Below are positions 7,654-34,311 of a stretch of DNA of 64,000 nucleotides, in pieces. The notes beneath the pieces were generated by a model, which searched no databases, was not told where the DNA came from, and saw nothing but the letters and a program-made list of their open reading frames with translations. Source of the DNA: Polytrichum commune (taxonomy: Eukaryota; Streptophyta; Polytrichopsida; Polytrichales; Polytrichaceae); the NCBI GenBank assembly GCA_950295325.1, contig OX485803.1, forward strand, positions 15,996,001-16,060,000, given 5' to 3'. The translations under genes were made by a program, and so were the position numbers. Position 1 is the first letter of the stretch, and each line of letters opens with the position of its first letter.

Positions 7654-10600
7654 TCAAGGATTTTTCTTAACATAAGACAAGTATGGATTTTGAGCTGCAG
7701 TCAACACATCTGGCCTTTCTGATTGATCATATGTGAGACATCGCCGCATGAATTCCTGAAACACATGCCACTTTAGCTAAGCTTTTGAAGTAGAAAGTAT
7801 TATATCCAAAACCAGGATATCTATATCCATTTGGGTAAGAATATCACACTGACAGGTATGACATACTGCATCCAACATACTAGAGTTATCATTTAATTCA
7901 ACCAGAATTTTGGTTGGGAGCTGGTTGTTTAGCATCCAACACTCTCCATGTTTGCTAAGTTTCAATGCGTGCTTGAAGCATGTATGGAAGTTTGAACAAA
8001 GAACCATCTATATCAGTTTGTTGAGTGCCAAACTTATTTTAGCATCTTCAGCATGCCAAAATAATAAAATGCGTTTGGATCTTAGTGAATATATAGAATG
8101 GTCTGCATTCAAACCTCCACACCAACTCCAATAATGCACCAAAAATTTACCTTATGACAACTTGCAATATAACTCTAAGCATATTGGATTTCATATGGGC
8201 ACTTGAATGGCGATGTTGAAAGAAAATAAACTTGGATGATATATGAAGAGAATAATCGCAACTACACCAACTTGTAAGACAACCCTGGACATACTAGTCT
8301 AAATTGTCAAGCAATTTAGAATATAAATAGTCACAAATGTGCTGCAAATAACCAAGAAAGGCAACTCCTCAGTAGTGTACATACCTTTGCTTCCTGGGAT
8401 ACAGATGGTCGTGAAGGAAACTCCACCTTGCGGGCATTGATTATGGTGTCTTCACGCACTAATTGCTCTTGACATTGATTGTGCCCAAAAGGTCGCTTCC
8501 CATAGAGCATTTGGTAGTAAATAACCCCCACTGACCACACATCAACCTGCACCAGATTGCATTTACGTGAGCAAAAGGTCTCCTCCGATTTTAGAAAATG
8601 GTGGGTTGCACTAGAATGAATCAAAACATCAATAGTCAATCCATGCAAAAAGTACCTTGGAAGAGATTAATGGTATCTTGTTTAAGTCAAAACATTCAGG
8701 TGGTAAGTACCTGCGCAACCCACATGGAAGATATTAGCAATGTCTCATTGCGTCCTGCAATTAGAGAATATAATTTCATTCCATATGCAAGTGACAATTA
8801 TTAATACACTACAAATCAACAATTTCTTCTACACCTGGTTGTGGGTAATTAAGGGAACTTCATACTTACCAGTAGGTTCCTGCACCTTGAGACGTCAACT
8901 CCATGCCTTGAGACCCATACTCTTCCTCTACAATTTTGCTGAGACCGAAATCAGTAATTTTAGCCACCCCATCTGAATTGAACAGGATATTTGCAGGTTT
9001 TAAATCATAGTGTATGATACGTTGCGACTGCTTGTTCAACCTCACAAGCCCTGCAAAAATCTGAACCAGTATACTCCTTGCCTCCCTCTCTGGCAGTATG
9101 GGTGTTTCTTTCAATACAACATCCAAATCTTTACCTGCAAAAGCAGCTCTATGTTAACAAGTATCCAATAGGATTCAGCACCATATGAATATCTACCAGC
9201 CAAATGTGAAACTTATCATGGAAGAGTAACAAATCAAGAGGTCATTCTCAATATCTGCTACCTGTCATTTTGTTAAAGTATATCCTGGGTCCACCAAGCC
9301 AGTACAATATACATCTGATTTAGTGTGGGCCACACTATTCATGTTCAACCATGACAATGAACTTTAGACTAATTATTGTGGGCTAAATTATTTTTCTAGT
9401 AACACCTTGTCCTACTAATGTTTGTTATCATGGCAACATAAATATATTATGGATATGTATTAATGCAGTTCAGTACTATCATGTCATAACATTTAGTTAT
9501 AATATGACAAGAGGCTTCAGTAATTTGCAACAAGACAACACATCAATATTGAAGAGTTTAAAGATTAATGTGGCACATTCAATCTAACACCACAGTAAAT
9601 CAGATATTTAGTGTAGTACACTCCTGTGCTCTTACTGAGCTCTAAAGTTCAGTGTGGTTCAGAATAACTTTTGAGTGTGGCAAGGAAAGAAGCAATACCA
9701 CTGCAGTACTCGAGCACCGTACAAAACGTGTTGTGATCGATTTCAAAGATGTCCCATAGACGCACAATATGTCTGTGGATGAGACTCTTGTGGATGTCAT
9801 ACTCTCGAATGGCATGTCGCACATAGGTTTGTTTCTTCTCCTCACTCCACTGCTCATTCAGCCTATGCAGCTTGCAAGCGACGTATTTGTAGTCCACCAA
9901 ATCGTAAGCCTGTCCCATTCTTTCCGTTGCACCCTCTCAATCCTCCATTCCAAAAGTCCCTACTTGAGGTGGGTTACAATAACATTCAAAGGAAACTACA
10001 CGGTCAAGAAGAATTTTCGCTCTCACCCAGAGACATTTCCCTCATTGTAAACGTATACTCATTCCCCAATGAGTATGCGTTTACAATGCTTTTCAATATA
10101 TAGGTTTAGTAGGATATGGAATATTACGTGACGAAAACAACTTAAGATAGGATCTTGGCATTGAAGAGTTGTATTGGAAACTACTTGAGAGGTGATATAG
10201 TGTGAGGGGATATACCTTGAAAACCTCGCTGAAGCCACCTTTGCCAAGAAGGTTCAGAAGTGCATAACGCTTGTTAAGAATCGGAAAATGGTTAAAAGGA
10301 GATGCATCTTCATCTCGACAACGTTTCATCTCTCGAATCAAACATCTTTTCTCTTGCTCTAGCCTATCCCGGTGCTTTAATGCTGCTTCCTCTTCCTGGT
10401 GAAATAAGATGAAAGAAAAGAGATGAACACAACAAAGATGCATGATATTATTGTGTGTATCCCTCTTATGTACTGTAACTGGGCAATTATACTGCCATCT
10501 TGATATATCAAACGAGATGAAAGTTGCTATTTGATCCAACAGTTGACATTCTCCTATTGATCATGAAGTAGCGCAAATCATCAAATCGTGCCTATTTGGG

Positions 10601-13600
10601 GCACTATTGGAACAGATATCCACTGCATCGTAGAGAACACAATACCCATTTAAAAGAGCGTCCAACCCATCTCATGTATTTATTTCAGTATTTATTTGAG
10701 ATGTACAAGACCCAAATGGGTACAAATTCATTTCATGCTGCTGTTGATGTAGAGGATTCTTACCCGCTTCACACCAAGAAGACGAGATCGGTAAACCTCC
10801 TCCATAACCAACACATCTTCCTCTGACATTGCAGGATCCCCACTGCTACCGTCCACCACTGAAAATTACATATAGAAAATAATGTCCATACTCATATTAG
10901 TAACAATGAAATTTCTATGATTTTAACCACGTGAAAGCATCTGTGCTAAACCTTCAAAATTGGGGCAAGAAAGGGGGCACAAAGAACGCAGGGCTTCTTA
11001 CCAGATCGTTGCTTTTTAAGCTCCTTGCACCGCTTGTCAAGAGATGCCTTTTGCTCCATCAAAGACCTCTATATAGCATTACAGTAATTCCACATAAGTG
11101 TGTGTAATTAAAGAAAACACCAGAAACGGGCAAGACACAACTTATCTGCCGGATAGAATCGATGAGTGTCCTGGAGAAGCACTATACTCTATATCATTTT
11201 CTATAGAAAGCTCAGCTGAGAAAAAATGAAGTACATTGCCAACGTCAAAAAGATGTTTGTAAAACCGTTCCATGCCAATCATAAGTATCAGATACATGGA
11301 ACAGACCAACCAAATAAAATAAAAAGGTGCAGAAAACATGAGCACCCTGGAAAGAGGGCACATCAAGGAAATAACATAATGAAAAAGAAATAGAAGGGAT
11401 CAATAAGCTCTTGTACCAGTCGGGCTTGGATTTCTTTGAAGGCTTGCCCATCTTCCCAGACCTCTGATAGCACTGTCCTCGCCCTGGTCATGGTAGAAAT
11501 ACCAGTCTTCAGCCTATGCAAATGAAACTAACTCTAGAAGCACTAAGATAACTGCCACAATTCTGGCGAAAAACAATTTAATCCCTAAATTTACAGAACT
11601 TGAGAGGTAAGATGGCATGAATTTTTGTTTTGAGCAGAGATTTAAGGTTTACCAAATGATTAGTACAGATGTATGCAACAATATTGAAATGCTAAGTAAT
11701 TATCATTCATGCTTCCTGAACATTTCATCACAATCTTGCTTGCCGAAGTGGAAATTCTATTTTTGAGTTTACAATCTGTTTAGTAAAAAGTATGAAGGCA
11801 GCGAACACAAGTTCAAATCAATATAACTTCGTATCTTTAAGCAAACCTCATGATTCCAACGTTGCCAAGTCTATTGCAATCTTGATGAAGCCTGGTGCGG
11901 GATTCTTGACGTTCTACGGTGGCAACGTGCACTAGCAGGTCTGACACCACCTTTATCCTCTGCAATATTTAAACAAAGAATTCTCAAAAATCAGACTCAA
12001 AACTTTGTTCCTGAAATTGAGCAACTTAAGAGGAAGCTCAAGCAAAGGAATATAGCGATATGGAGGGATGATGGGGAAAAATTCAGACCTTCTCGGAAAA
12101 GACCATTCTCAACTGATAAGACCTTTATGGTTTCACTTATGGAAACAAGGACGAATTTCTTCTCATATGATATTTACCTTTTTCTCTCGTTGTTGCTCCT
12201 TATCCTCCAATTCTTTCTTTTCCTGTTGGACAATGATAAAATATGAAGCATCGATTAGGCCAAACCCAAAGAACCTGATATCACAAAGCAGAGCAATGCT
12301 TATTTCATGTGAGTAAATTCATTTAATTGATTTGTGTCTCAATAAGGATTACTATGGACAAAAAATGTACCTTCTCGAATCTCTTGATAGTATTGTGTGC
12401 ATTAGCAGCTTCTTGCTTAAATTTAACCAATTCTTCCTCCAGAGAAGAAGCCTTTGCTTGTAGACTAGTAATATCCTCCTGCTTTTATGACATAAAAGGC
12501 TTAGTACCTGGAAAGCCAAATAATTTTCTGCACGAGTTTCTAATCAACTTGACCATGTACAATATGCAACTGTAATTCGGTCTATGTACTCATCAAGGGT
12601 ACATGACAAACTCTTCTGTGAAGCATATACAAACATATATTTAGTTTCATGTCCGAGTTAATGAAATGTTCAGCTTGAAAACTGTGCAATGCCAGACCAA
12701 CTGATGATCAATCAGATATAGTGTACAAAGGAGCACATGGTTGTTTGATACTCACTTGTAATTGTGCTCTTCTTTGTTCCTCCTCTAACCGATCAGCATT
12801 GTGTTGTACATTCTGCAGCGAAATGTCACCATAATGGTACCTGTTAAGCTTGAATCCGCTGAACAAACTCGTCTCTCGTACTTGTCAACATTTACGTTTT
12901 TGGTTCTAAGCTCCATAACAGTGTTTATGTTCAAGTCAGAAATAACAACACCGTTGTGCACACATATAAACACACCTTTGTTTTGTAAGACCGCCCGTTA
13001 TTTGAATCATTCCCACGTTTTCTTTTCTGATTTAGTGAATTGTCCTGGCTGCTGATACTTAATCTCGGGTTAGGCTGTATCACGAAGTCCCCGCCATCCT
13101 GCAAAATGGCCACATCCTTCATTAACTCACTGCTTATAAAACAAAGGATAAATATCATAGCGTTGGGCGTACGTTAGGGACACAGTTCGGAAAGCTATCA
13201 TGAAAACTAGCAACACTAAAGACTGCACACCTGCCACCATCTTGTAGATGGGATACAATAAATTTGCACACTGCTATAAATCCAGATATTGGACTGGAAG
13301 GCACTTAATCCCGACCCATCCTTCCATCCATTCCTTTCAAACAATCCACTGAATTTTAACAGAGGTGTTCCACAGGTACTGAACTGATTATAAATGAGGT
13401 GATTCCAGTACTTGGAATAACCACCTCAAAGAGGCTTTAAAAGTTTGAAAAACTCTCCTTCATGAAGAGTATTTCGTCTAAATTTTTAATGACTACAAAT
13501 GTAAGGTTAATTTGAATGAGACGTATATGCATTTTATAAGTTAGCAACACAGGCTACCAGAAGCTTGGATTCTTCAGTTAATTAAAAAGATTCTTCAAAT

Positions 13601-20680: not shown

Positions 20681-21625
20681 ACCCATTTTGACTTTCAAAC
20701 TTAGCTGGGATCCTTCCTCCACGACTTGCACCTGTGGTGATCATCATTGTTGTATCCATGAATGCTCTTTCTTCAAACAACTATGTCATTCTTTGCCCAA
20801 CCATGTCAGTTGGACCTCTAGGAATCAATTGTGCTCCATTGCCCTAATTAGGTATGTTGAAATTGCTCGACCCCAATTGGAGGTCTTTTGTGAACACCAA
20901 GGCAAATTGTTGATGCCACTGATCTCCCCAAATCTTTTTACTGGTAATTCTAATGTGATTGGGAAAAAAACCATTCATCCATCTGTAACGAGAAAATACA
21001 ACATATTCATGATTCAGCACTGAAGGCACAGAAGGTTTGAGAAACATAAATTTGTTACCCTCCAGATTTCCACTTATGATCTTGGGAGGTTTTCATCCTT
21101 ACAGCAAAGTAGACATTTATGTAGCTTAAACAACACTTGAAAGAGTCCTCACGAACACTACTGCACTCTTTGGTAAGCACAACATCTCCTCAGCTGATCC
21201 AATCTTTGTTGGCTTCCAACCAGCCACATTTCAGCAAATCAGAACTTGTCTGGCATTTCCATGGCTAACACACAGATCAACTTCGCATCCTCTGTTGTAA
21301 ATCTCCCTGCCAACCAAAGATTTGGCTGTTCCATAATAGCCTCTGCCAGCGATTAATACTGGAGACTAGTAGAAAATTTGACAGACTGGAGGAATGACGC
21401 AAAGGTCAAAGAAATTGTTAAAACGCGTGGCTGAAACCAGTCAACTTTTATGCACTATCTGTACATTGTCAACTGCAATTGGATTATCTTGTTGATTGCT
21501 GCAGGATGACATCCTGATGATGCAAGATCTTTAATCCCCCACATTTCACAACAACATTTTTACAGAACCGAGCAGGTCAAAGTTTGAGGTTACAGATGTA
21601 TGAATGTTGAATCAGATCAAGAAAG
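20681..21625. other. Downstream region of GPN2, no supported gene
   Basis: A 111-codon frame (20688-21023, +) shows no known domain. The stretch is probably 3' UTR and intergenic sequence. Confidence 0.4.
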
Positions 21626-24600
21626 CTACATGGGTTCGCTATCATCACCCTCCATGTACTTCTCCTGCACTGCCATCGTCGTGCAAAGTCCATTGTCAAG
21701 GCTAACACAGTATTTGAAATTAGGTGTAACTCCATACAAACGCCAACAGCTGCATAAGACAAGAAAAAGCAGCATAGCATCCCCACCCTTGCTACATGTT
21801 CAACATAATTCATGGGGGCTAGCCAGATCATTGTTCTGGCCAAACCAATAACTTCCACACAGACATAATATAACAGCAGACAAGGAGGATATCTGTAATA
21901 GTCCCAGTTGAGTGGGGCTGCAGCAATTTTGTAAAACTCGTTGATATTGCTTTCGATCCCCTTGAAAACATATCCATTGCTTTTGTCAATGATCTTCAAG
22001 ATGTTCATTACACTCTCTTTGTCCTGGACTCAAGTCAATGATGCACTATTAGCACACAACTTTCCACAACTTAAAAGACATCTTCAAGAATGTCACAAAA
22101 GAGATAACATGAAGAAGTCTTGAAGACATGGATGAACAGGATATGTTGAGAGAACTGTGATTTCACTACCCATTGCTAGTAGCAATACCAATAGAGCATG
22201 CCCAGAACAATTACAAACAACATCTCTTCACATCCTACAGTTCAAAGTGTGTCCATTCATACCCATAGTCAGCAAAATTAGGACATCACAGTGTTTGTGT
22301 CACATTTATTCTCAAGCAGAAAAAGCCTATGATGGGAGAACTTTGGTAGATGTATTAAAAGCTAGCACTATGGATGTTGCTGGCCAGAAAGCAACCAAGG
22401 AATATGGATAATGCACCTGAATATTCAAAGTTGTAAAATTGACAAGACCATAGTCCTCCACGACCTCGCATAAGTTCATGGTCATCTTCCTGTCGACATG
22501 AAAGGCACCTTGAGAAACTTATGAACTGAATTTTGATGAATGACAAATGTAGAATCTTCATAGGACTCGAAATATCATCTGTGAATGACTCACATCCCTA
22601 TACCCATCCAGAGGATAATGAGCTTGTAGATTGGCTTCCATGCAAGGTTATAACTTGACATCCCAATCCCTTTACAAAAGTTAAAATCATACCTATATTT
22701 TGCAGCCCGAGGATCTTTGTTTAAATATTCTTGAAGATATGAAAGATCCTGTACATCGGTGTAGAAATCCAGATTGAAAGCTGTCATAAACAAACCCCAA
22801 TCAAATAATCAAATATATAATCATTAGATGTAGCAATAAATTTAGCATTATTCCATGTGCACTTGGCATAAAGACAGTGAGAGAATCCTGGTAGCCCAAT
22901 CAGAGGCGTCCACACAAGAGGGATGCGTTACCAATCACACATCTTGTAATGGTCATAACATATCAAATTCCTGATTATATGGAGGTGCCCTGAGTAAAAC
23001 TAGTGAACCTTTGTGCACACAATACGCAGTCAAACATCAAAGAATGAGTACAATGATGGGAGGTGTACCAAGCTTTCCATAACTTTCTATTAGATCGATC
23101 TTTGACAAGACATTGACATGGGGCAGCTCCAAGTGAAGCATGGTTGAAAGTGACATCAAAAGAGCTGACACATATTTCCCTGGGTCACTGCATAAATGAG
23201 CATCTACCAGATGCACTGCTGTGAGCTGCAAATAACAACGCAAATTTAATCAAAGATGGGACAACACAACTTTATACAACTGATGTCCCAATCTTGAAAC
23301 GCACAAAACATACAGTCAATGGAGCTAAGAATACTCACCTAACAGAACAGCATCACTAGCTTGGTCGAAATGACACATGATTGACTTCAGCTATTTCCAG
23401 GTTTGCGTTATTGTTTAGAGGTGATTTATCATGTGAAAAGAAAAATTCAGAAAGGAATGTAATATAAACTGCAGGGTTTCAGAATCAGACCCGAAAATGC
23501 CACTTATTGACCATCTCCAAAATCACGTTCTTGGCATTGGAATGAAGTGTGAAGAGCTCCACTTGGCCAGGGAAATCAAATAATAGATAATGGTCTGCTT
23601 GAACGCCCACAAATCTACGAGTTACAATTACTAGAATTACAGATTGTACATACTAGTGCCTCACTTTCATGTTTTTGTTGGAGCTCCAATTCATAGAATC
23701 AAAGAGCTCCAAAAGTGAAACCCTGTAGTGTATAAACATTCAAAAGCAACAGGCAGCACTACCAAATACTTCCTCATTACACACATTGCAAGAACATTGA
23801 ATGCCTTCACCAACAAATTTTTGGCAGACACAACAATCTCCTCAATGTGTATGTACATTGCATGAAGCTGTACCTTTAATTAGTGGTTTCAGCTTGGCAT
23901 GCAGCCAATCGATATTCTTCTCTAGATAGTCCATGCAATATACAAGCCCTGCATTCAGCCATTGCAAACAAAGCATTGTGGTTGATTATTTGTGTGCTGA
24001 GAGAAATAGTGACACATACTCAGAATTATTTCTCGCAAATATCTCCCAAAAAATCATTTGAAAATGAAACTGCAAGTCTAATGACATCTGCAATCTCTCA
24101 GATTGCATGAACTCCACCACAGTTGCAATTTATTCTTGATGCTCATACGAATTAGCAATTTAAAAAGGATCCAAGTGCTAAACAAGTACCTCCATTTGGT
24201 CCAAGACCATACTGAGACATAACATCCTCCAGCTTGATAAGCTCTTCAATGTTCACAGCACATTCATACCTAAGTGTGTCAAGGCACTAACTTCAAAACA
24301 ACAAAACAAGACACTACCTAGATGATGGATTTCCTAATCAAACATGCGTGTATCCAAGGCTGTATTAAGGTAGATAGAGACCAAATCAAAAGATACATTG
24401 TCAGGGCCTTGAGGCCAGAGGAATGGAAAGAGGCAGACCGTGGCTTCTACCAGTATCAAAATACAAATTTGACCTTACAAACGGAAAACAGATCTCCAGT
24501 TCAAAGTGTTACATATGAGGTAAATCTCAAGCTTGTGCAACTTAATACACAAATTTGACAATGAGCAGCTTATAAAATAGACTCAATTAAAAGAGGATAC

Positions 24601-25255
24601 GGGAGGCTATCGTTTGCTGGATCGAGATTTATGACTGCAGTCTTTCTGCACAGACCCACACCACCACTATCAGCCTTAGACCCTAAACCCTAAATCCTAA
24701 ATCCTGACTTTGCAACGAGCAGACAAAAGGCGCATTTGCACACAACCATCACGATGGTTGAGTTGTGGTTCGGGCCCACTTTCAACCACAACTACCAAAA
24801 AAAAAGAAAATCGTTTACAAACAACTACTCTTGTGGTTGAAATAGACCAAACAAATTAAACTACAACAATCAACCCACCATAAGCCCTAAACCCTGAAAC
24901 CTAACTTTGCAACCAGCAGACGGAGATGATCAACTAAGAAACACACTGCCCATCTTCATACAAATCACCAAATGAGAACACATTAACAACACCAAATACC
25001 AAAACACCATGACATTCACTACTAGGAGGAAGCTCCTTTATACTAATACAATCATCACATGTTTACACCGGTAAACACTTTACATTCGTCATGACGTGGA
25101 TCCTTTGTTAATTAAATTTCCTTCTGCTAAGTCTTTTTGGCATGTGTGAAGGGTAGCACAAACCTGCCAATTAATCGGAGAAACTGAGACATGCCATTGC
25201 AGTATGTCGTCTTCCCGGAGCCTGGAGGCCCGATCACTATCTGCCCGAACGGCAT
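21626..25255 (-). CDS. GPN2: GPN-loop GTPase 2, 10 exons, with an AT-AC last intron
   Basis: Exons, high to low: 25255-25164, 24645-24601, 24269-24190, 23948-23874, 23594-23491, 23225-23069, 22780-22693, 22489-22417, 22023-21893, 21680-21626. These give 900 bp, 299 aa, in frame throughout. The protein begins [20 protein letters not shown] with a P-loop at residues 9-17. NLDPAND follows, then the diagnostic GPN triplet (LGPNGG, 69-71). It then has DFPGQVELF (104-112), SKID (173-176, the NKxD equivalent) and a C-terminal AVQEKYM. The family is dimeric GTPases implicated in cytoplasmic assembly and nuclear import of RNA polymerase II; the Arabidopsis orthologue is QQT1, needed for early embryo division. 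The usual length is about 300 aa, so the gene looks intact. Intron 9 has non-canonical AT-AC ends (separate entry). Exon 5 uses a weak GTCTGA donor. Confidence 0.93.
21681..21892 (-). other. GPN2: U12-type AT-AC intron of GPN2
   Basis: This 212-nt intron starts, on the minus strand, with ATATCCTCC and ends TTTGCAC. No GT-AG choice gives the expected protein. Splicing ATATCC...GCAC joins DYY-R to TMAVQEKYM in frame, with exon phases that fit on both sides. A U12-style branch site CCTTGAC lies with its adenosine about 15 nt from the 3' end, within the short window typical of minor-spliceosome introns. Confidence 0.85.
24680..24922. repeat. GPN2: Telomere-like motif direct repeat in GPN2 intron 1
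   Basis: CCCTAAACCCTAAATCCTAA followed by CCTGACTTTGCAACGAGCAG at about 24688-24725 is repeated with variation at about 24886-24922, some 200 bp apart. A short hairpin (AGTTGTGGTT with AACCACAACT) lies between. The motif resembles a telo-box or interstitial telomere repeat, which in plants can be a regulatory element near the 5' end of genes. No function is shown here. Confidence 0.45.
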
Positions 25256-27515: not shown

Positions 27516-28688
27516 ACCGTACTTACATAGATAGATGTCCCCCCGCCCTAATTTGCGCAACGGAAATCAAAGCCTTGCGATCGATTGGCCCAATCCAAAT
27601 ACCTCATCCCAAACTGGAAGGAGGATTAAAATATGAATAATTGTCAAATTAAAAATTAAACATTAAACTGATGAATCTGGGAAGATTCTACAGTTCAGCC
27701 CCCCCTTTCTCATCGGTCTCCGCCGCGGAGCCGAGCTCATGAATCTGCAATTCTGCTACTAAAGATGCAAATCCAACCCATCTGAGGAGCTCACTCAGGG
27801 AGTGGGGAAGGGTGACGAACGACAACAACATGAAGATGGTTATGGTGTTGAAGTGGTGGACAATGGACATACTTACATACAAGTAATAATAATAAGTATG
27901 CTTGTGGACAGGGAAAAGTGTTGCACTTTTTGCATCTCCGGCGTCGGGAGTGTTAAGGATGTGGGGAGGGTTGTGGGTCGTTGATTTCGGGGGTAACTGC
28001 AAGTTAGCGTGTCGGAGGGAGGAAAGTTGAGTTAAGCTTAATAAGTATCGTGCACACTCCTGCTGGTGACAAGGGAAAGGGAGTGACGATGCTGATGATG
28101 CTGATGGTGGAAGTTTATGTTGATGTTTCTGGGAGCATCCAACCGACCTAGCTTAGGCGGGGTTAGGTGGTAGGAGTAATAGGATGGCACCGGTGCTTGT
28201 TGTTGCGTAGCCGCGAAGAAATCCGTGCTGACTCAAGAAGTCTCTGGGTATAGCTTAGGCCTAGGTGAGGATGTATGTAAATGGTTGTTTTGAAAACCAT
28301 CTGTAAGTTTGCGGTTGGTCATCATTAGAAGTAGTGGTGCGGTGTAGGGAGAATTTCAATACTGTTGCTCTCACAAGCAAGCAACCGAGTGGAAACGGTT
28401 CGGTGTGCAGGTAATAGTAGGGTTATAGTGACACAGGCACGTTTCTCTTCTTGAATTTTGGAACCTGTTGAGATTCAGTGATGCATACGGGGTACGGGAG
28501 ACTGTGAGTAGTCTAGAAGGGGATTAGATTGGAAGTTTGAAAAGATTTTCGAACGCTCATCAAACAAGAATTCTCGTACACATACATACATATATACATA
28601 CGTGCATTGAGCGTTTGGAATTTGGAAAATAATCCTCAAGGAAAAAAAAGAAAAGAAAGACAGATCGCGAACGAAGAAGCTGGTGACC
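27516..28688. other. Upstream region of the PAO gene
   Basis: No independent gene is supported. A 104-codon minus-strand frame (28002-27688) has no recognisable domain. The last 130 bp are A-rich leader sequence immediately before the ATG at 28689. Confidence 0.4.
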
Positions 28689-31600
28689 ATGGCAGCTCTG
28701 TGTGCAGCAGCAACCCCCGCCTCCTCGCTTCTTCTTGGACACTCCTCCTCACCCTCACTAAGCCCGAAAAATTCTGCAGTTCAAGTTGCAATTAAGCATG
28801 CGTCCACGAGCTCCTCCTTTCTCCGGAACCCGCAGAGCAGCAGGCTTACTCTACAAAGGAGAAGGCAGCATGGGATGAAGATGAAAATGAAGATGGGTGC
28901 CATGGTGGCGACCATGGCGCCACCCCGGCCTCCCGTGGAGCCAGACACATCCGAGAGTGGAGAACCCGAGCCCAGCCTGGGCATGGAGGCGGTTCTGCGA
29001 ACGGATGGTGGGGAAGAGAGGAAGGAGGAAGAGGAAACGAGTGGGGATGCTTTTGTGTGGAGAGACCACTGGTACCCAATATCCTTGATTGAGGATTTGG
29101 ACCCCACTGTGCCCACCCCTTTCCAGCTCCTGGGTCGGGAGCTTGTGGTCTGGAAGGATCAGCAAGGCGAGTGGCGAGTTTTTGTGGATAAATGCCCTCA
29201 CCGCCTTGCTCCACTCTCTGTGAGTAGTCCACCTCATCCCTACCCATATCTGTGTTGCGCTCTTGTATTGTGTCGATTTTTCTTTGTCTTGTTAAAATTC
29301 TCCGTGCAAACATGTGCTCTCTCTACCTGCGCATGTGCTTTGCCCTTTTTAGTGACGCCCTGGATTGAAGGAACTTGTCCGCCCATTGTCTTTCTCCACA
29401 TAGGCAAAATGAATGTCCGTAATCCACCTCATCCCTACCATCTCTGTCCTGTGCTATTGGATTGTATCTATTTGCCTTTTCATGTCACGTTCCTCTGGAT
29501 TGAATGGACTTATTTTTTCAATGTCTGCTTTACTGTTTTAATTTACTGGATTGAATGAGGTTATCTGCCCATTTTCTGAGTCCGTTTCGGCAATATAAAT
29601 CTTTTTCAAATTTGAGACGTTCGATCACATAACCCGACCCATCCCTACTATCTCTGTGATTTGCTTTAGAATTGTGTTTATTTCTCTTTCTTGTCAGATT
29701 CCTCTGCAGCTGAACATTATTTTACAAATATGTGCTCTCTATTACTACTCATGTGCGTTGCTGTTTTAAGTGCCTGGATCAAAGGAATTTGACTGCCCAG
29801 TTTCTGACTCTGTTTGGGCAAAAGGAATATTCTCAGTATCTGAGATGATCATTCACGTAATCTACCTCACCCGTTCCATCTCTGGTTTGGGCTCTTGAAT
29901 TTTGTTCATTTCCCTAGTCAGATTCCTCTCCCGTCAAATATCTCACTACAATCCTGTGCTCTCTATCTACGCATGTGCCTTGCTGTTTTGAATGACTGGA
30001 TTGAATGAACTTGTCATTGTCATGTTGTCAAAGTTGGAGGCGATCCATCGATTTGTACACACTGTATCGTACTTGAAAACCTGGGAATTGCTGATACTAG
30101 TTGAAATCGTGTTAGGCTACACAACTACAGTTGGGCCTGAAGGTAATCTAAACGTGTAGAATTGACATAAGTTGTTGAGAATCTGAAGTATGCGCCCAAA
30201 TGTCGTCTCCAATTGGGGCGTCATTTTATCTCATAACATATTGAAGGATCTATACGAGATTGGGTCACCAGGACTCGGAAATTGGAGAGGAATAATTTAA
30301 TCTCTACGGATCTGCATGTCTCTGTAGCTTGGGTTCCTTAGCTGAACGCAGTTCTCTACAGGCCAGCCACAAACAGAGAAGGGTTGGCTTGTTGATGGAT
30401 GAGAAAAATCCATTAAGACAGGAGAGAGTGTAGAAACTAGGGTTTATCCTTTTTATGCCCATCAAATAATTACTGCAAGTTAGACACGAGGGCAACCCAA
30501 CTTGGTCCGAAGTTGGTTCCATGAGGTGGGATGGTAGGTCAGATGGGACTATGAAAATATAAAAAACGATTTTTAAAAGAACTGCAGATGTGGTTCCCAT
30601 GTGGTTTAGGGTATTGGGGGATATTGGACATGATGGATGTGTACATGAGCCCCAGTGCAACTCTTCTTTCCAAATACAGCTTTTCATATTACCCTCCAAA
30701 TGTATCTAAGAGTGTATAATTTGTCGCTACGTAAAGACCTACATCCTGTTTAGAAAGAGGACTTTGAGAGGAATCTAATGACACCATAAGTGCCTAACTC
30801 ATTTAACTTTTGGACCTCCAAAAGGAAACTGTTTTAAGAACCTACCATAAGGAACGTTTTCTTATTCAGGGGTCACTATCCAGACTCCCTAGCGCTTCAA
30901 AAAGAACTAGGAACTTATCTTAAGGGAGTCTGCTATTATCTTGTAATAAGACAATAAGTGCATGAGGCATGCTAGGGGGGGCATGAGATTTGCTAAAGGT
31001 TATTTCTTGTTGATGTCCAGGAAGGGAGACTGGATGAATCGGGTATGCTGCAGTGCTCTTACCATGGATGGTCATTTAAAGGGGATGGCAGTTGTGGTGC
31101 AATTCCACAGGCAGCCACCGAGGGACCAGAGGCTAAGGCCAAATTTTCTCCGCGGGCATGTGCGACAGCTTATCCTACTCTTGTTTCGCAAGGGTTGCTG
31201 TTTGTGTGGCCAGATGAGAAGGGCTGGGAAAAAGCCTCCAAGGCTTCACCCCCAATGTATGTAACCTCTTGCTTCAACTCTTCCAATCTGTAAAGTACTA
31301 GTTTCAGCCTGTGCCATCCTGGCTCATTGCACCTGTCCATATGAATTAATATAATGAACCATCCTGCACTGTCCACTCAATACGCCGCTGTTGAAAGCCG
31401 GCCATTTTGGTAAGGTTGAATGTCAACAGCCTCACCACCCATGTGCCCTTGCCGTTCAGCCTTTCCAAATGTATAGTAGATCTGTTCTGATTTTCACAGA
31501 TAGAAGAGTATTTGCACATGTCAGATTAGTTAGGTGACCTGGCAAGACTATAGATACGGGAAGGAACATGTTGTTGTTCAATGTCTGAGATATGTCTTCT

Positions 31601-34311
31601 TTTGCAGGTTACCTGCAGAGTTTAATGACCCAAGGTTCTCAACTGTGACAATACAGCGGGACTTGTACTATAGTTATGATACACTGATGGAGAATGTCTC
31701 GGACCCATCGCACATCGACTTTGCTCACCACAAAGTTACTGGGAGAAGGGATAGAGCTAAACCGTTGCCATTTAAGGTGCACAAAAGTGGGCCTTGGGGT
31801 TTTACAGGTGCCAACAATGACACTCCAACAATCACAACTGGATTCTACCCACCATGCTACTACTATAACAAGTAATGTTCAACTTATCACTGCATTATAG
31901 TTTCTGCAAGTTATTGTCATTAAGGGCTCGTTGTCAATATTAAATGCTTTTCAAGAACGTTTTTGCACGAGTGTTCGTATTAGTTGAGACGTTATTTCCT
32001 TGGAGTTGAACCTGGAAGCACAACGTTGAGAGGCTTGTGGCTACGGTTGCAGGATTGAACTTCCTGTCAAGCTACCTATTTTGGGTGACCAAAAATGGGA
32101 GATATTGATTTGTTCATTCAACATTCCTATGGCGCCGGGGAAAACGCGATCTATTGTGTGTAGTGCCCGCAACTTTTTCCAGTTTACCATGCCTGGGAAT
32201 GCCTGGTGGCAGGTAATTCTCATTCCTTGAACTTTCTTGCAAAGGGTTGAAACAATGCAATGAAGCAGTTCACCTGCACCTGACAAAAGGTCGTTTGACC
32301 ATCAGCTTGGTCGTGTGCACATTGAGCTTATTGAAATGTGTCATTTCATTATGGCCACGCATGTCATCATCACAATTTCTTGTTAAACGAGTCCTCAAAC
32401 AGACCTCTATGAGCTCCTTGCTAGTTTCTATGTCTGGAGTCATCGAAGATGTAAACAGCAGCCCTTGGGTTTGTTTGAGGTTTTTTTCTTAATGTCTCTT
32501 GGTTCGAATCATGGCACACTCGCTTAGGTTGTGCTTTTAGGTCTGCCATATGGGTATCATTATGCAGCTCATGTTGTTCCATCATGTTGAAGTTGTTTTG
32601 TTTATGTGACAAGGTTGGCTCTGGAAATTTAATGTGACATTTGAGTTATCTGTAAATCTCCTCAAAGAGAGACCAAACTAGGAGTTTGGTTCCTTTTGAG
32701 GGAAATTTCAAATTAAGAGCTCGGTAGAGCGTCTTGTACCTAAGACTAATCTTGGAAGTTAGATGAAACTCTTGGACCTCCTCTTTCATCCAAAAAACTT
32801 TGAGAGAATTTTAGGACCTAAGTAAAACATGGTCTGACCCATGGGACCAGCCACCTCAAATCCCAGCTCGGCTCAGCTCAAGGCAAGCTTGGCCCACTGA
32901 TCCAAGTATAACAGGCTAGAGAGCCGGTTTTGAATAGCCTGGCCCCACTCTTTAGCATATTACTTAGAACCTTAAGAAAACTTGGGTGGCATTATGCATA
33001 AGCTCTCAAACTTACTTACCTTTTAGCCAACTCACTTGGAGTTTGATCCAGAGACTTAACAGATACTTTTTTTGTCCCCCTAGTGCTATGGATAATTGTT
33101 GTGAACTCCTGTATTGACTCTGGGTGCTGAGTAATGCAATCTGTGTTGCTTTTGCAGCTTACACCTAGGTGGTTTGAGCACTGGACATCGAACTTAGTTT
33201 ATGATGGAGATATGATTGTATTGCAAGGCCAGGAAAAGGGCTTCCTAGCGCAGGGTGGTGACATCAATGCACAGTACAGCAAGTTCACTTTCACACCTAC
33301 ACAGGCAGACCGTTTTGTACTTGCATTTCGTAGCTGGTTGAAAAAGCATGGCAATGGCCAGCCTGAATGGTTTCCAGAAGCCAGAGTTGGACAACCTCCG
33401 CCCTCCACTGTTCTCTCCAAACGCGAGGTACCTGATTGTTTTTCCTTCAACAAAGTGCAGATATAGCTGTGACGTCTGTTTTGTGAGGAAGTTTGTACAT
33501 CCACTAGTCTGGGCCAATGCCGTCCTGGCATGTTGCACCCGTGCATATGAATTAATGCCTCGGACCATCCTTACATTGTCCGCTAAATAGGTTGCCATCC
33601 ACAACTGGCCGATTTGGAACTTGGAACTTCAACACCATTTGCCCTCACCGTTCCAAAGTTGCAAAATGTATACTAGTGGATAGTATGGGCCCGGGTGGAC
33701 CTGGCACGTTCTACCTGTGCCCATGAATTAATTTGCTGGATTGGGGCTGGATCATCCTTGCACCGTCTACTCAACATGCCGCCATTGTTTTTGGAACAGC
33801 GGTTGCGTGATTACATGTGACTACCGTCCAAGCTTCCAGAACATACAGTAGATAGCAGTGTTGTATTTGCTCATTCGAGTCATTGGTGCCCAAGTTGGAG
33901 TGTTGGTACTCCACTCGTCTAATTTGCAGATAGTTAGAGCGTGTTGCTTTCTAGGGATTGATCATGGTTCTTTTTTCCTTTTACTGTGCTATTTTCAGTG
34001 AGAGGTTGTAGCCCTTATTCATGCTATTGATTCGTGGAAACATAACAACTTTGCAGATGTTGGACCGGTTGGAGCAGCACACAATGAAGTGTTCATCATG
34101 CAGAAAAGCGCTGAAGGGGTTCCAGTTATGGCAAAAGATTTTGTGGGCAAGTACCATTGTGTTGGCAGCTGGTGCAGGTGTCCCCCCTGGTATGACTATA
34201 CGCGCACTCCTTGCGACGGGATCTGTGATCAGTGCTGCCTTGGCGTACACACTAAAGGAAGCCGAGAAGAATTTCATATTCAAGGACTATGTGCACTCGG
34301 AGATTGACTAG
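28689..34311 (+). CDS. PAO: Pheophorbide a oxygenase (chloroplast Rieske oxygenase), 6 exons
   Basis: Exons 28689-29219, 31021-31256, 31608-31871, 32053-32212, 33158-33427 and 34057-34311 join to 571 aa; all introns are GT-AG. The N-terminal 80 residues are Ser/Ala/Arg-rich and fit a chloroplast transit peptide. The Rieske [2Fe-2S] motif is C169-x-H171 and C189-SY-H192. The mononuclear iron site is in DPSHIDFAHH (288-297). CxxC at 499-502 is the redox pair shared by PAO, TIC55 and PTC52. Two C-terminal hydrophobic segments (about 512-526 and 531-548) anchor the protein in the membrane. The DPSHIDFAHHKVTGRRDRAK block is the PAO type rather than the TIC55/PTC52 type. PAO opens the pheophorbide a macrocycle in chlorophyll breakdown (ACD1/LLS1 in angiosperms). 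The start is the ATG in ACCATGG. A methionine/lysine run (MKMKMKM) near residue 63 is odd. Confidence 0.94.
29227..30015 (+). repeat. Four degenerate ~200-bp tandem repeats in PAO intron 1
   Basis: Units begin with CCACCTCATCCCTACC-like text at about 29229, 29424, 29633 and 29862. Each runs through TGTGCTCTCT..CATGTGC..TGGATTGAATG-type blocks. The first unit starts a few bases after the exon 1 donor site. Divergence between units is considerable. Confidence 0.65.
31298..31490 (+). repeat. Intronic repeat shared by PAO introns 2 and 5
   Basis: The block CCATCCTGGC..TTGCACC..CATATGAATTAAT..CCATCCT in intron 2 recurs twice in intron 5 (about 33503-33680 and 33681-33865). It ends with CCAAATGTATAGTAGAT-like text in each. 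It is non-coding. Confidence 0.55.
33503..33865 (+). repeat. Two further copies of the PAO intronic repeat (intron 5)
   Basis: Two consecutive, diverged units, each with a GCACC/CCTGTGCCCATGAATTAAT..ATCCTT..GTC.ACTCAA core, matching the copy in intron 2. Together they make up most of intron 5. Confidence 0.55.

Follow-up and report, generated by a model that had tools for sequence, protein, structure and literature searches.

A plant GPN2 gene that appears to carry two predicted U12-type introns, one of them with AT-AC ends

Which spliceosome removes the last intron of the GPN2 gene of Polytrichum commune, a stretch that appears to run from AT to AC? We addressed this in a 64-kb window (the whole stretch of contig OX485803.1 that was analyzed), in which the gene was inferred from the DNA sequence alone. 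Our reading, to which we give a probability of roughly 0.93, is that intron 9, the last of nine, is a putative U12-type AT-AC intron and that intron 2 of the same plant GPN2/QQT1 gene is a putative U12-type GT-AG intron.

Exon reconstruction placed the gene on the minus strand, from 25255 to 21626, with 10 exons that yield a 903-nt coding sequence with start codon and stop, encoding 300 residues. The reconstructed exons are as follows.

25164 to 25255, minus strand, exon 1 (start codon, P-loop)
24601 to 24645, minus strand, exon 2
24190 to 24269, minus strand, exon 3 (GPN motif)
23874 to 23948, minus strand, exon 4
23491 to 23597, minus strand, exon 5
23069 to 23225, minus strand, exon 6
22693 to 22780, minus strand, exon 7
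22417 to 22489, minus strand, exon 8
21893 to 22023, minus strand, exon 9, ending in NWDYY-AG
21626 to 21680, minus strand, exon 10 (C-terminal tail and stop)

The product has what defines a GPN-loop GTPase, an ATP_bind_1 domain with the P-loop (GPPGSGKT) and the Gly-Pro-Asn motif; the Pfam match to PF03029 (ATP_bind_1) covers residues 7 to 256 with an E value of 2.6e-79 and scores 266.9 bits, where the cut-off is 27. Solved GPN GTPases were included among its five PDB matches: one chain carrying the name GPN-loop GTPase 3 scored 191 bits, and those carrying the name GPN-loop GTPase 1 scored 101 and 77 bits. As none of the five bears the name GPN2, the assignment is provisional and depends on features that we take to be those of GPN2, namely, the QEKY tail and the region around YGKLAFNLD. 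The QEKYM tail is typical of GPN2 and is kept in other species. Elsewhere in the window, open reading frames of the Rieske/pheophorbide a oxygenase type were found at 28611 to 33463 on the plus strand (PF00355 and PF08417 above the cut-off, PF19112 just below it) and a protein kinase exon (PF00069) at 8334 to 8666 on the minus strand, near which the open reading frame at 10096 to 10560 had no Pfam match. Neither an Rfam scan at the gathering threshold nor a tRNA scan gave a match in the 64 kb.

The features of intron 9 were derived from motifs and reading frame (the intron), motif scans (5' splice site and branch site), and a junction scan (3' splice site).

21681 to 21892, minus strand, predicted U12-type AT-AC intron 9, 212 nt, phase 2
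21884 to 21892, minus strand, predicted U12-type 5' splice site ATATCCTCC
21695 to 21701, minus strand, predicted U12-type branch-site core CCTTGAC, with the branch A at 21696
21681 to 21682, minus strand, predicted AC 3' splice site, with a further in-frame AC ending at 21678

On the minus strand, the borders of this intron read ttacag|ATATCCTCCTTGTC ... TACTGTGTTAGCCTTGACAATGGACTTTGCAC|gacgat. With the U12 consensus forms taken from PMC2426677 and PMC5932401, ATATCCTCC agrees with the donor consensus RTATCCTYY at nine of nine positions and resembles the ATATCCTT form of U12 AT-AC 5' splice sites, with C instead of T at positions 8 and 9. Near the 3' end, AGCCTTGAC matches the branch-site consensus TTCCTTRAY at seven of nine positions with the CCTTGAC core intact, and its branch A lies 15 nt before the intron end, TTTGCAC|G at 21681. 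Removal of the intron in phase 2 would join AG|G into an arginine codon and continue in frame into the TMAVQEKYM tail. Both the AT-AC intron at 21681 to 21892 and the CCTTGAC motif about 15 nt from its end had been proposed in the initial annotation, and the full donor match, the AC end, the branch position and the predicted in-frame join bear them out. U12-type introns have no polypyrimidine tract ahead of the 3' end, but over the 20 nt that precede the terminal dinucleotide the pyrimidine fraction is 0.55 in intron 9 and a similar 0.45 to 0.60 in the seven U2-type introns of the gene, so that it does not discriminate between the two kinds.

The same annotation had overlooked a second U12-type candidate, found with the same kinds of evidence.

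24270 to 24600, minus strand, predicted U12-type GT-AG intron 2, 331 nt, phase 2
24592 to 24600, minus strand, predicted U12-type 5' splice site GTATCCTCT
24278 to 24284, minus strand, predicted U12-type branch-site core CCTTGAC

This intron (GTATCCTCT...CCTTGACACACTTAG) splits the coding sequence after SLP, within the GTPase domain. It combines a 5' splice site of the GTATCCTT type, identical to the U12 donor consensus at all nine positions, with a TTCCTTRAY-like branch site (TGCCTTGAC, eight of nine), whose core is the one found in intron 9 and whose branch A lies 9 nt before a 3' end that reads TGCCTTGACACACTTAG. The remaining seven of the nine introns look like U2-type introns; they agree with the U12 donor consensus at no more than 4 to 7 of 9 positions and have no CCTTRAY core 7 to 25 nt from their ends. 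With the looser branch match, introns 5, 6, and 8 reach seven of nine without the CCTT core, equaling intron 9, so that this score alone cannot separate it from them. Predicted pairing with the 5' end of U1 was -0.8 kcal/mol for intron 2 and -1.6 kcal/mol for intron 9, and from -4.1 to -7.0 kcal/mol for the seven others. The U12 reading of intron 9 is well supported by its splice-site and branch motifs, its frame, and its weak U1 pairing.

Motif frequency does not add to this case. RTATCCTYY occurs at 5 sites on the two strands of the window versus 4.34 expected, and CCTTRAY-N5-15-AS at 40 sites versus 39.79 expected; a combined donor, branch, and acceptor scan of the 64 kb returned two donors, both within GPN2, whereas 60 Markov resamples gave 1.85 on average. 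With counts at chance level, we rejected the motif scans as independent evidence. The other perfect RTATCCTYY sites, at 12471, 40290, and 58972 on the plus strand, have no CCTTRAY with a matching acceptor within 3 kb and are probably due to chance. What carries the support is the exact placement of the motifs at junctions fixed by the protein: both U12 motifs would fall at such a junction by chance with a probability of about 1e-6 per junction, a rough figure in which the window frequencies used include the sites of introns 2 and 9 themselves.

How strictly the protein fixes the junction was seen in a scan of in-frame, stop-free pairs of five dinucleotide classes, with the intron length set to 60 nt or more. 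It returned 138 pairs (13 GT-AG, 11 GC-AG, 57 AT-AC, 27 AT-AG, and 30 GT-AC), which makes the original statement that only this splice restores the tail too strong. A direct join of NWDYYR to (T)MAVQEKYM was given by just two of the 138 pairs, 21892/21681 and 21892/21678, the latter with one Thr fewer. Use of the AC at 21678, instead of or beside 21681, is compatible with a U12-type intron 9, and we consider it unlikely, if worth keeping in mind. The sequence CAC|GAC| forms a tandem acceptor that keeps the frame either way. AC dinucleotides sit 8, 15, and 18 nt past the branch A; the first would shift the frame, and the third, at 21678, is farther than the second from the optimal branch-to-end distance of 11 to 13 nt (PMC3584512).

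A conventional U2-type GT-AG intron in or near this stretch, which would add residues to the tail, seems highly improbable. The 13 in-frame, stop-free GT-AG pairs provide candidates such as 21845/21730 and 21874/21750, and U1 pairing of the GT at 21845 amounts to -3.9 kcal/mol, which is nevertheless weaker than at all seven U2-type donors. The AG at 21750 (minus strand), inside intron 9, is rich in pyrimidines (15 of 18 versus 8 to 12 at the gene's own acceptors), but the donors in frame with it are weak (-1.4 kcal/mol at 21937 and +1.1 kcal/mol at 21874). All 13 pairs bring foreign residues into the junction ahead of MAVQEKYM, and four of them lose NWDYY as well; the precise U12 motifs at a clean junction would be left unexplained. 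The GT at 21786, also inside intron 9, pairs with U1 at -8.7 kcal/mol but lacks an AG with which it would keep the frame. Because of the pyrimidine-rich AG at 21750 we also considered a twintron, in which a U2 intron would sit inside the U12-type intron 9; this was discarded for want of a strong GT donor in frame with that AG. The motifs, phase, and reading frame of intron 9 can be read directly from the DNA, and no good U2-type alternative is present for it.

The stretch might also be kept as coding sequence, with a hydrophobic C terminus as the normal form of GPN2. If retained, eight of the nine introns would run into an in-frame stop within 34 residues. Intron 9 alone contains none, and the frame of exon 9 stays open through it (21577 to 21894, minus strand) for 105 residues past NWDYY; the stop that closes this frame ends at 21577, farther downstream than the regular one at 21626. 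The intron-encoded part is hydrophobic (mean Kyte-Doolittle value of 1.10; best 19-residue stretch, 1.84). Dinucleotide shuffles of intron 9 were equally open in 10 of 1,000 cases (about 1%), none of the 10 being as hydrophobic, and the number of open introns expected over all nine was 0.045. Retention would replace the QEKYM tail typical of GPN2, and the 150-residue read-through open reading frame had no match in Pfam; we give this possibility almost no credence. Even the open hydrophobic frame as such is suggestive at most of some meaning. An extension of this idea, in which intron 9 would be a minor-spliceosome-controlled switch between two GPN2 C termini and retention would relocate or disable the protein, appears very doubtful. 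If it were true, active U12 splicing would give the QEKYM tail and its failure the hydrophobic 105-residue tail; the retained mRNA, with neither an early stop nor a downstream junction, would probably escape nonsense-mediated decay, and the gene, with a G-type branch site in each of its U12 introns, would report sensitively on minor-spliceosome activity. AT-AC introns of the U2 type are reported at 0.01% among the U2 introns of Arabidopsis (PMC7367187, Table 2), and excision of an AT-AC-ended intron 9 by the major (U2) spliceosome is hardly credible given the 9/9 U12 donor, the U12-like CCTTGAC core, and the weak U1 pairing of -1.6 kcal/mol.

For the preferred U12-type intron 9, the steps would be those established for its class. 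The U11/U12 di-snRNP would recognize ATATCCTCC and CCTTGAC, with U11 on the donor and U12 on the branch site, after which U4atac/U6atac.U5 would catalyze removal, and the minor spliceosome would join AG|G into the Arg that precedes the TMAVQEKYM tail. That the intron is actually spliced, and at the AC at 21681 in preference to 21678, we infer from these sequence features. Counting against it are the branch match of only seven of nine, the G as upstream purine, and the 15-nt branch distance. Both U12-type introns have G at this branch purine, where A splices better than G in plants (PMC5932401), and their branch distances of 9 nt (intron 2) and 15 nt (intron 9) fall outside the 11-to-13-nt optimum, 15 nt being within the 10-to-15-nt range given in PMC2426677. 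With such branch sites and distances, the two introns may splice slowly and could limit GPN2 output; PMC7367187 cites work in which the removal of U12 introns was not slow enough to matter. With one U12 intron close to where the coding sequence starts and the other directly before the last exon, each GPN2 mRNA would need two minor-splicing steps. A gene predictor that accepts no intron ends other than GT-AG would miss or distort the C-terminal exon.

A dependence on minor splicing has been described in Arabidopsis, where GPN2 is AT5G22370 (PMC6748027), the gene known as QQT1. In PMC5853960, Kwak et al. 2017 presented it as an indispensable U12-intron gene, with a splicing defect that scales with the severity of U11/U12-31K mutants, whose development was rescued by QQT1 expression; knockdown of qqt1 altered no U12 intron examined there. 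Splicing of QQT1 is also impaired in a U11-48K mutant (PMC4892727). The rescue indicates that minor splicing limits QQT1 in Arabidopsis, and by analogy minor-spliceosome activity may limit functional GPN2 output here, with removal of intron 9 presumably dependent on the U11, U12, U4atac, and U6atac snRNPs. A coupling of minor splicing to transcription capacity via GPN2, put forward in the initial annotation, is conjectural: it comes only from the role of the GPN family in the nuclear import of Pol II (PMC6748027), and the role that the QQT1 authors propose is in protein transport of the chloroplast rather than in the supply of Pol II (PMC5853960). Since QQT1 was already published as a U12-intron gene, this gene is a known target of the minor spliceosome, and our finding is sound but mostly expected, with low novelty.

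Literature searches for GPN2 with "minor intron" or "minor spliceosome" and for ATPBD1B with "intron" returned nothing, the papers pairing GPN2 with U12 appeared to be unrelated, and the "gpn" matches viewed in PMC13115098 were to the unrelated Gpnmb. GPN did not appear in a term search of the main text of PMC2846911, PMC2831892, PMC6717393, and PMC7367187, and no U12 position in Arabidopsis or human GPN2 was found in the main texts searched. A search for relatives of the protein in viral contigs, aimed at further plant or algal DNA, gave seven stretches that fit a pattern, none of them confirmed. U12 positions are poorly conserved between animals and plants according to a section heading of PMC7367187, whereas PMC2426677 counts 20 shared positions; in U12DB, only two Arabidopsis U12 introns, both belonging to other genes, have an orthologous U12 intron in human, which PMC2831892 judges an undercount. 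Intron positions across plants and animals would show if a double dependence of GPN2 goes back to a common ancestor and was later reduced in certain lineages.

Among known minor introns, the AT-AC subtype was called rare in the initial annotation, which agrees with the 4.8% from a transcriptome study quoted in PMC5932401 but not with the 26% of Arabidopsis U12 introns in IAOD (PMC7367187). Plant CBP20 likewise has, in land plants, an AT-AC U12 intron between a conserved core and a C-terminal part, but it is another gene, and nearly all of its U12 introns studied have A at the upstream branch purine, not G as here (PMC5932401). Sodium and calcium channel genes of mammals also have two U12 introns, but in an unrelated family (PMC2831892), and U12 introns clustered significantly within genes in every one of the 21 genomes tested (PMC7367187). 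For the GPN-loop GTPase family itself, a review gives 100% of genes with minor introns, although as a family count without intron positions (PMC6865273). The closest known system is QQT1, as far as can be judged the same member of the GPN family, with a U12 intron and a dependence on U11/U12-31K and U11-48K; the available excerpts of PMC5853960 speak of its U12 intron in the singular, without position or subtype, whereas the gene described here appears, from its sequence, to be a plant GPN2 with two predicted U12-type introns, intron 2 (GT-AG) and intron 9 (AT-AC).
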